Virus record (IMG/VR): IMGVR_UViG_3300036046_000374
Location: 1-32,623 of that record
Source of the DNA: a virus
DNA: 32,623 bases
Strand: one strand, 5' to 3'
The notes under the pieces were generated by a model, which did no database searches, had not been told where the DNA came from, and was given only the letters and a program-made list of their open reading frames with translations. The translations under genes and the position numbers were made by a program. Shown here piece after piece: positions 7,849 through 9,843 of the stretch (position 1 is its first letter; each line of letters opens with the position of its first letter).

Positions 7849-8271
7849 TCAAGCCGCGCGGATCTCCGGCCGAACGCCCAGCGCCCTGAACGCGGCGCGG
7901 AACGTTGCGAGCTTGGTACCGTGCCTGGGATCGAGCATGCGGCGGACCTCCTTCTCGTCCTTCCCCATCCGGCGCGCGAGCTCGACGCGGGTGACGCTGT
8001 GCTCGCGCAGGGCCTGGTGGAGGAGCGCGACGGTGGCCGCGTCGATCGGGGCGGCGACCAGCAGCTCGCCGGGCTCGGCGTCGCTAGGAACGGGCACGTC
8101 GCGGCCCATCTCGACCAGCATGTCGATCCAGGTGCCGATGTAATCCTCGGCGGCTTGCAGGGCGGCGGCGCGATCGCGCGCCTGGGTGGCGCCGCCGAAG
8201 TCGCGAACGTGAACGACGAAGCCGCCGTCTGCTTCCGCCTCGAGGCGGACGGGATAGGTGAAGTCGCGCAT
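7849..8271 (-). CDS. HicB-type antitoxin, 140 aa
   Basis: The N-terminal part (MRDFTYPVRLEAEADGGFVV, then residues to about 63) matches the HicB partial RNase-H-like fold that blocks the toxin. The C-terminal part (from about 85) is an HTH (HSVTRVELARRMGKDEKEVR) that would bind the operator upstream of hicA. Ribosome-binding site AAAGG lies upstream of ATG 8271, and the gene follows hicA by 3 nt. It is encoded against the early operon, directly after the PP-loop gene. Confidence 0.88.
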   Translation of the reverse strand: MRDFTYPVRLEAEADGGFVVHVRDFGGATQARDRAAALQAAEDYIGTWIDMLVEMGRDVPVPSDAEPGELLVAAPIDAATVALLHQALREHSVTRVELARRMGKDEKEVRRMLDPRHGTKLATFRAAFRALGVRPEIRAA

Positions 8272-8274
8272 GGT

Positions 8275-8487
8275 CTAGCCTTTCAGGTCTTCCTTGGTGA
8301 GGCCCAGGTCTTTCAGAACCGAGTGGAACGTGCCGGGCCGCAGCTCTTCCTTCCGGCCCGGCAGCACTGTCATCCGGTCGCCGAACCAGACCTTCACATG
8401 GTCGCCGCGGCCGGACTTAGCTTCGAGCTCGACGCACCGGGCCTTCGCCAGCTTGCGGAGGATGCGGAGGAGTTCGTCGCCGTTCAT
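8275..8487 (-). CDS. HicA-type toxin (mRNA interferase), 70 aa
   Basis: Small dsRBD-like fold protein starting MNGDELLRILRKLAKARCVE. The family's catalytic histidine region is present (G-R-G-D-H-V-K-V-W-F, His30; many relatives have S-H), followed by TVLPGRKEELRPGTFHSVLK, the usual HicA pattern. HicA cleaves mRNA when free; HicB neutralises it. The order hicA then hicB with a 3-nt gap is standard. Likely a phage accessory gene for plasmid/prophage maintenance or defence against other phages. Confidence 0.88.
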   Translation of the reverse strand: MNGDELLRILRKLAKARCVELEAKSGRGDHVKVWFGDRMTVLPGRKEELRPGTFHSVLKDLGLTKEDLKG

Positions 8488-8493
8488 GCATGT

Positions 8494-8546
8494 TCTATCG
8501 GGCAGTTTTGTCCGACAGTCAATCGAAATCGGGCGGAAGTGTCCGA
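8494..8546 (-). promoter_or_regulatory. Probable hicAB promoter and operator
   Basis: On the minus strand TTGACT (8522-8517), a 17-nt spacer and GATAGA (8499-8494) form a plausible promoter just upstream of hicA. Two direct copies of TGTCCGA (8509-8515 and 8540-8546, plus-strand sense) flank the -35 and could be HicB binding sites for autoregulation. Called by eye; HicB sites vary among families. Confidence 0.5.
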
Positions 8547-8561: not shown

Positions 8562-8813
8562 ATGGTGATGGCGGCGCTGCTCGGATGGGCGACTCTGGCC
8601 ACCGTGGCGGCGGTGATTGCGGTCTTGCGGGCCTGGCACTGGCGGCGGAGCTACACCCAGGCGCTGGAGCTCTATCGGAGCCTGCCGAGGGCCTCTGAGC
8701 GCACTCCTCATCAGCGAGGGGCGGAGACACGCCGCCGGCGCGAGCTGGCGGCCAAGCGGGCGCATCGGGAGGCGCTGGAGCGATCGATGATGGAGGATGC
8801 GGCGCGTGGGTAA
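8562..8813 (+). CDS. Small single-pass membrane protein, 83 aa
   Basis: Begins MVMAALLGWATLATVAAVIAV, a clear transmembrane helix, followed by a basic, helical cytoplasmic tail (RRRRELAAKRAHREALERSM). A start at ATG 8490 would add 24 residues that lie across the hicAB promoter, so I prefer 8562 (8568 is also possible). It overlaps the 5' region of the replication gene slightly, and GGAGG near its end serves that gene. No family recognised. Confidence 0.5.
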   Translation: MVMAALLGWATLATVAAVIAVLRAWHWRRSYTQALELYRSLPRASERTPHQRGAETRRRRELAAKRAHREALERSMMEDAARG

Positions 8814-9843
8814 GGCAACCGACCAGTGGATGCCGCTCTACGTGGCCGACTATCTTGGGGACACCGGTCGCCTCTCGACGGAGCAGCATGGCGCCTACCT
8901 GCTCATCATCATGGATTATTGGGTCAACGGCCCGCCGCCGGATGACGATGACGTGCTTGCAAGCATCACCCGCCTCGAGGTGAAGACCTGGAAGCGACAC
9001 CGCCGATCGATCGAACGCCTTTTTCGGATTGAACACGACGTGTGGCGGCACAAGCGCGTCGACGCCGAACTGGAGCGAGCGGGCGAGCTGGTAGAGCAGC
9101 GCCGCGCGGCTGGCAAAGCATCGGCAGAGGCGCGAGCGAGGAAACGGGAAGGGCAACGGGAGGCCCAACGAAAAGGCAACGAGCGTTCAACGAGCGTTGC
9201 AACGAGCGTTGCAACGAGCGTTCCAACGGGAGAGGCAACGGAAGGGCAACGAAACGGCAGACCTCTACCTCTACCAGTAACAATAGAACCAATCCCAATC
9301 CCAATCCCAGACTCTGAACCCGCGCGCGCGGGCTTACCGGACGGGTTCGACCAGGTCGTGGCGGCGGCTGGGTTGCGCATCACGGCCCGGAACCGGGAGC
9401 GGGAGGCGGCGGTGCTGTCGGGTTGGGTTGGGATTGGGTTGGGATTGGAGGAGATTATCAATGAAATCAGGAGGGTGCTTGCCGAAAAGGAGGGCCCGAC
9501 GTCGACTCTCGGGCGGTTCGACCGGGGCTTGCGCGACCTGGCAGCACGGCGAGCTTTGCCGAAAGCCGAGCCGCCGGCCGAGGTGCGCGCCGTCGACGCG
9601 ATCGAGGTGGATGGCGCCCAGGCCGTGCGCAATTCGCTGCTTTCCGAGTTCGGCGCGAAGACCTTCGACGCATGGCTTAAGCCATGCCGGCTGGTCGCGG
9701 CCGATGATGGCGCGGGGATCGTGGTGCTCTCGCCGTCGGCGTTCATGCGGGACTGGATTCGCGACCATTTCGCCCCGCAGATCGCGGCTGCGGCCGGCCG
9801 GCATCGCATCGGCCCGGTGGTCGACTATCGGGTGGCGGCATGA
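8806..9843 (+). CDS. Replication initiator-like protein: DUF1376 plus DnaA domain-I-like C-terminus
   Basis: N-terminal DUF1376/YdaU-type domain (WMPLYVADYLGDTGRLSTEQ, HGAYLLIIMDYW; residues 5-100), typical of phage replisome organisers. Next is a low-complexity linker: the iteron region encodes ATSVATSVATSV and the C-tract encodes PIPIPIP. The last 80 residues (AVRNSLLSEFGAKTFDAWLK, then VVLSPSAFMRDWIRDHFAPQ) closely follow the pattern of DnaA domain I (x-x-F-x-x-W-x-x-P, then L-x-P-x-x-F-x-x-x-W-V-R-D). DnaA domain I recruits DnaB, so this protein may load the host helicase. GTG 8806 is preferred because GGAGG ends 9 nt upstream; ATG 8797 directly abuts it. Stop overlaps the next start (ATGA). 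Confidence 0.85.
   Translation: MGKATDQWMPLYVADYLGDTGRLSTEQHGAYLLIIMDYWVNGPPPDDDDVLASITRLEVKTWKRHRRSIERLFRIEHDVWRHKRVDAELERAGELVEQRRAAGKASAEARARKREGQREAQRKGNERSTSVATSVATSVPTGEATEGQRNGRPLPLPVTIEPIPIPIPDSEPARAGLPDGFDQVVAAAGLRITARNREREAAVLSGWVGIGLGLEEIINEIRRVLAEKEGPTSTLGRFDRGLRDLAARRALPKAEPPAEVRAVDAIEVDGAQAVRNSLLSEFGAKTFDAWLKPCRLVAADDGAGIVVLSPSAFMRDWIRDHFAPQIAAAAGRHRIGPVVDYRVAA
9177..9222 (+). repeat. Four iteron-like direct repeats inside the initiator gene
   Basis: Four exact copies of CAACGAGCGTT start at 9177, 9188, 9200 and 9212, spaced 11-12 bp (about one helical turn). Each unit with the next base is itself a dyad, CAACG-AG-CGTTG. Looser CAACGR matches continue on both sides (near 9154-9180 and 9235-9252). 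Iterons within the initiator gene mark the origin in lambdoid phages, so this is a candidate origin. Confidence 0.8.
9289..9448. other. Inverted C-tract / G-quadruplex pair within the initiator gene
   Basis: The C-tract CC-AAT-CCC-AAT-CCC-AAT-CCC spans 9289-9308. About 110 nt later the plus strand has five GGG runs with 2-3 nt loops (9420-9422, 9425-9427, 9430-9432, 9436-9438, 9441-9443) plus GG at 9447. Segment 9430-9448 is almost the reverse complement of the C-tract (one base indel). The plus strand can therefore form a G-quadruplex, and the two segments can pair as a long stem. It lies just after the iterons. Confidence 0.75.

Follow-up and report, generated by a model that had tools for sequence, protein, structure and literature searches.

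A candidate replication origin embedded in a DUF1376 initiator gene of a phage

Do short repeats in the middle of a phage initiator gene mark the place where replication begins? The window analysed here is the whole 32,623-nucleotide stretch (32.6 kb) of a viral record, and its initial annotation proposed that iterons within the initiator gene form a candidate origin of the lambda O type. An embedded origin would be expected to combine DNA-level repeats beyond what the protein needs, an adjoining AT-rich and strand-biased stretch, and a helicase or loader gene next door. Every point of the proposal that could be tested on the sequence supports it. The array is probably (roughly 0.8) a replication origin that lies within the gene of its own initiator, with a lambda-like layout; it is very probably also the set of binding sites of the encoded DUF1376 protein.

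The initiator gene and its repeat array

The initiator gene (8797..9843, + strand) encodes a protein of 348 aa that consists of a DUF1376 domain, a long helix, a disordered linker which bears the repeats, and a DnaA_N domain. The DUF1376 (PF07120) domain covers aa 11-93 (8827..9075, + strand; Pfam E 3.2e-18, AlphaFold pLDDT 94); its score of 66 bits against a curated cut-off of 30 places the protein in the DUF1376/YdaU family. AlphaFold predicts a winged helix with helices at residues 28-44, 51-58 and 62-73, a wing at 77-84 and a long helix at 86-129; residues 62-73 are a candidate recognition helix. The linker is predicted to be disordered and the C-terminus is modelled with low confidence. 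PDB fold neighbours of the winged helix are for the most part other winged helices or related folds that bind DNA, at E 0.05 or worse; since these E-values are weak, a fold class is claimed here and kinship to a particular protein is not. A sequence search of solved structures with DUF1376 returned nothing relevant, and no paper title in the open-licence literature searched concerns DUF1376 function. The best PHROGs relatives of the initiator are labelled 'primosomal protein'. Just past the domain, aa 105-109 (9109..9123, + strand) read AGKAS, a motif that accompanies AACG/AACA-type iterons and is a candidate specificity element.

Two other features of the window lie outside this gene. A weak HicB-like antitoxin and HicA-like toxin pair is found just upstream of it (7849-8508, - strand), and the contig starts with 13 copies of a 15-bp tandem repeat, GTCGAGGCTGGCGCC, at 95% match (1-196).

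Four exact copies of CAACGAGCGTT start at 9177, 9188, 9200 and 9212, the last ending at 9222; the spacings are 11, 12 and 12 bp, as annotated, and no further copy is present anywhere in the window. Each contains the dyad AACGAGCGTT (9178..9187, 9189..9198, 9201..9210 and 9213..9222, none assigned a strand). The general pattern AACGNNCGTT has exactly four matches in 32.6 kb, all of them inside the array; 100 dinucleotide shuffles average 0.32 matches, with at most 3 in any one of them. The units had been described as dyads throughout. This holds for the outer letters but not for the centre; the dyad is therefore written AACG-NN-CGTT, because the central AG is not itself palindromic.

The four units are real, but the array is longer than the initial annotation proposed. 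It extends over 9154..9251 (+ strand) as nine CAACG half-sites, which start at 9154, 9166, 9177, 9188, 9200, 9212, 9224, 9236 and 9247 (pitch 12, 11, 11, 12, 12, 12, 12 and 11 bp). Their codon phases are, in order, 0, 0, 2, 1, 1, 1, 1, 1 and 0, and CAACG is accordingly translated as QR, N or T.

These phases bear on the possibility that selection acts only on a Thr-Ser-Val-Ala linker, with codon bias producing identical codons. Copies 2-4 are indeed in one frame and encode TSVA or TSVP, as had been claimed for all four; copy 1 falls in a different frame and encodes NERS, which adds weight to identity at the DNA level. When synonymous codons were shuffled within the gene and the protein was kept, none of 20,000 permutations reached the observed 71 6-mer pairs, the 42 out-of-phase pairs or the 11 occurrences of CAACG/CGTTG, and none reproduced the four 11-mers. 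The earlier statement that codon identity exceeds the need of the protein is thus borne out, and the initiator gene carries the DNA-level repeats expected of an embedded origin. Protein-level selection is contradicted already by the half-sites in three phases and is extremely unlikely as an explanation; the array is almost certainly a real DNA-level element.

The AT-richer stretch reported after the repeats is present. A candidate unwinding element at 9260..9309 (no strand assigned) has 57% AT against 33-43% inside the array and is almost free of G on the + strand; the longest G-free run of the window is 9287-9309. The window thus has an AT-rich, strand-biased stretch next to its array. A similar placement is seen in relatives: for 81% of the 179 genes examined, the start of the longest G-free run falls 300-520 nt from the beginning of the gene. 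Two observations count against an origin here. The AT content of 57% is modest, and cumulative GC skew, proposed as a check, has no turning point near 9.2 kb and so lends the origin no support.

Other sequence features follow the array. A GC palindrome, CCCGCGCGCGCGGG, lies after the AT-richer stretch (9319..9332, no strand assigned); its hairpin is no better than those of shuffled sequences. The longest C-free run of the window, the G4-like GGGTTGGGTTGGGATTGGG... (9420..9458, + strand), is also inside the initiator gene and is partly complementary to the C-rich run 9289-9309. In many DUF1376 relatives the array leads immediately into a CCTTCACCTTCACC-type tract that encodes Ser-Pro repeats, and in some cases stable hairpins with TAAC- or TTC-like loops come next. 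A conserved post-array hairpin of this kind in AGCA-class genes (TAAC or TTC loops) is striking by eye; it did not beat codon permutations and was rejected.

Repeats and recognition across the DUF1376 family

The arrangement is not confined to the window. Two sets of genes were tested over the linker, defined as the 225 nt just after the DUF1376 domain: 71 genes (window included) that are long enough among 75 non-redundant DUF1376 genes, and an independent set of 128 genes, also non-redundant, from viral contigs and bacterial genomes. Direct 6-mer pairs in the linker number 31.6 against a null of 8.5 in the first set and 33.2 against 9.8 in the second; for out-of-codon-phase pairs the values are 11.2 against 3.0 and 10.5 against 3.2. 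In both sets repeats are near expectation in the DUF1376 domain and in the C-terminus. Background is low, with out-of-phase p<0.01 in 8 of 667 windows in the neighbouring genes of relatives and 3 of 170 in other genes of the window. For single genes, direct repeats have p>=0.01 in about one quarter to two fifths of cases.

Spacings between repeat pairs peak at 11-12, 22-24, 33-36 and 44-48 bp, in steps of one helical turn. Iteron letters vary by group (AACG, AACA, AGCA, GGCAAA, TGCA and others); pitch and place are constant. Absence of repeats from close relatives had been named as a point that would tell against the origin. Among the relatives found, the nearest is L005 (52% identity over aa 1-171), and it too carries CAACG repeats at the matching place. 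A scan of genome contigs with the window protein alone detected no relative; an alignment-based scan found relatives.

The dyads themselves are rigid. In 54 genes with the AG[KR]AS motif, AACG and the CGTT that faces it stand at a distance of 6 in 75 cases, and distances of 5 or 7 are absent; AACG follows AACG at 11 (82 cases) or 12 (44 cases). The central two bases are free to vary in this group, and dyads are found in every codon phase. Rigid spacing around a variable centre is, as a sequence pattern, the look of a dyadic protein-binding site, unlike the product of slippage or of protein selection.

The array can also be used to find the gene. Viral contigs were scanned for CAACGNNCGTTCAACGNNCGTTG with no protein information, which gave, together with two contigs from an exact-pattern scan, at least 80 contigs. 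A DUF1376 profile match lies immediately upstream of the array in 67 of the 80 contigs listed; L433 is one more DUF1376 by Pfam, giving 68 of 80. Among those 67, AG[KR]AS is present in 49 and an AGxxS variant in 16. Four remaining listed contigs (L431, L455, L463 and L457) encode Lin1244_N or DUF6291 with an AGxxS-type motif before a AACGNNCGTT array. Lin1244_N (PF14297) and DUF6291 (PF19808) are Pfam families separate from DUF1376, and no role is described for them in the open-licence literature searched; the common array suggests that the layout reaches beyond DUF1376 to both.

A disordered linker such as the one predicted here readily gains short tandem repeats, and neutral slippage could in principle leave repeats in DNA that has no function. 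Slippage would have to account for a dyad spacing that stays at 6 throughout 54 diverged genes even though both central bases change, for different motif classes at one place and one pitch, and for a DNA motif that retrieves the DUF1376 gene family by itself. It is very unlikely.

Iteron class appears to track the motif just after the domain. In the first set, where classes were assigned by eye and k-mer, AG[KR]AS is found in 12 of 12 genes with AACG/AACA iterons and in 0 of 63 others. In the second set, with the rule fixed beforehand, AACR exceeds AGCA in 41 of 42 AG[KR]AS genes, with no reverse case and one tie; the genes without AG[KR]AS divide 40 against 37 (Fisher p 2.7e-9, uncorrected for descent). 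Phylogenetically independent contrasts of motif and iteron class had too few independent pairs and were underpowered. The association is strong, and shared descent may contribute to it. It also bears on the proposal that the sites serve partition, packaging or recombination and lie in the initiator gene incidentally. No specific point favours that proposal; an iteron class that follows a motif of the encoded protein, in an array inside the initiator gene itself, makes it highly improbable.

Comparison with lambda O and Rac

The lambda origin sits in the middle of gene O, where iterons are followed by an AT-rich stretch (PMC7466680). When lambda O is put through the permutation test, it is significant exactly over the annotated iterons and nowhere else. 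The window resembles lambda O (Phage_rep_O, PF04492) in having dyad iterons and then an AT-rich stretch inside the initiator gene, and in the division of the protein, predicted for the window, into an N-terminal DNA-binding domain and a C-terminal helicase-loading part. The two systems differ in their sites, which by annotation are 18 bp long at 20-24 bp in lambda and are 10-bp dyads at 11-12 bp in the window, and in the C-terminus, which has a DnaA domain I-like fold in the window protein, unlike lambda O. The window protein has no Phage_rep_O match at E<=1. Homology between DUF1376 and lambda O was considered and rejected at an hhalign probability of 14.5% with a single sequence and 4.4% with an O alignment. 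By both sequence and the length and spacing of its iterons, the window protein falls outside the lambda O family. On the sequences compared, the window has a lambda-type layout in a gene whose protein family shows no homology to O that these comparisons detect. The literature searched consists of open-licence papers, and earlier accounts of iterons in DUF1376 genes may exist.

In lambda, P adjoins O. The gene after DUF1376 among 83 relatives matches DnaB_C in 15, the IstB/DnaC type in 13 and lambda P in 10; many relatives thus have a helicase or loader next door, and none was recognised among the early genes of the window that were scanned. The Acinetobacter plasmid pALWED3.4 (L342, NZ_CP032289.1; 12.4 kb, circular) carries DUF1376 with a DnaC/IstB-type ATPase and no other annotated Rep. 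An integrase is encoded there as well, and the plasmid may be a satellite or an excised element.

Dyads at helical pitch would suit a regulator equally well, and the PDB neighbours of the winged helix are mostly MarR/LexA-type regulators. The array could then be an operator through which the protein binds its own gene and controls transcription of the replication operon or copy number, with replication beginning elsewhere. Its position argues against this: it is located in the interior of the gene, about 350 bp past the start, and is followed by a G-free, AT-richer stretch family-wide. The helicase and loader genes next to DUF1376 in relatives and the similar layout of lambda O point the same way, and an operator array is unlikely.

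A DUF1376 gene is also found in the Rac prophage, where YdaU has this domain family in common with the window protein. Rac YdaU differs from the window in its iteron letters and its C-terminus (DnaT-like in Rac-SA53); the gene after DUF1376 in Rac-SA53 has a lambda P match. In E. coli K-12 ydaU, AACAGGTGTT and AACAGATGTT lie 12 bp apart, downstream of AGKAS. The 10-kb Rac segment has no exact AACANNTGTT sites other than these two (L096:6539-6560; NC_000913.3 about 1421538-1421559). An origin in Rac, oriJ, has been reported to be active but kept repressed (PMC3945230). The AACANNTGTT pair in ydaU is predicted as a candidate oriJ.

Helicase recruitment and a proposed mechanism

Domain I of E. 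coli DnaA contacts DnaB. The window protein ends in a domain I-like DnaA N-terminal domain (aa 276-333; 9622..9795, + strand; E 2.7e-13), which matches the E. coli DnaA domain I structure 2e0g and is a candidate DnaB-recruiting part. Its C-terminal 60 residues are closest to the chromosomal DnaA of Sphingomonadaceae, with up to 51% identity. This domain (DnaA_N, PF11638) is what the protein has in common with bacterial DnaA; unlike DnaA it lacks the AAA+ ATPase and the DnaA-box-binding domain IV, which places it outside the DnaA family, and the iteron sites of the window are not DnaA boxes.

The fusion of DUF1376 to DnaA_N occurs in one of 57 proteins scanned, that of the window itself, and searches of viral contigs and of INPHARED returned no close relative of the DnaA_N end. 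In Rhizobium phages (L006:3276-3848, L012:3250-3705) a stand-alone Bac_DnaA_C gene directly follows the DUF1376 gene. It was considered as an unfused partner of the window protein's C-terminus and rejected, as it encodes domain IV (Bac_DnaA_C) and not domain I.

The scan of early genes that recognised no helicase or loader covered a contig that is possibly incomplete. Since no loader was recognised and the C-terminus is a relative of DnaA domain I, direct recruitment of DnaB by this end would be the likeliest route for this phage, at about even odds.

Together these features suggest a mechanism. The DUF1376 winged helix, probably dimeric and acting cooperatively, would bind the AACGNNCGTT dyads and the CAACG half-sites, which are spaced by one helical turn in the DNA that encodes the linker. 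The resulting nucleoprotein complex would open the adjacent AT-richer, strand-biased stretch at 9260-9309, and the C-terminal part would then bring in the replicative helicase. In many relatives this last step would rely on a phage DnaC/lambda P-type loader, or on DnaB, encoded next door; in this phage, host DnaB would be recruited directly by the DnaA domain I-like C-terminus. All of these steps, from protein binding and the opening of the stretch to the start of replication and the recruitment of DnaB, are inferred from the repeats with their DNA-level constraint, conservation and pitch, from the gene neighbourhood and from the predicted fold.

A wider reading is offered tentatively. DUF1376, Lin1244_N and DUF6291 might belong to a single, very large superfamily of phage initiators in which every gene has its own origin. 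Iteron specificity would come largely from the motif past the winged helix: AGxxS would go with AACR dyads, and different tails with the AGCA or GGCAAA types. The end that recruits the helicase would be freely swapped, and here would be a copy of host DnaA domain I that loads host DnaB in place of a phage loader.

The embedded-origin reading would assign both a function and a mechanism to a domain that is widespread in phages and is named only as a domain of unknown function (DUF1376/YdaU). It predicts the exact origin of hundreds of phages and prophages, oriJ of K-12 Rac included, and extends the lambda layout to an initiator for which no homology to O is detected. The correspondence of iteron letters with a short motif of the protein is a possible recognition code. 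Finally, the DnaA domain I ending suggests that a phage may capture the host helicase without a loader of its own.
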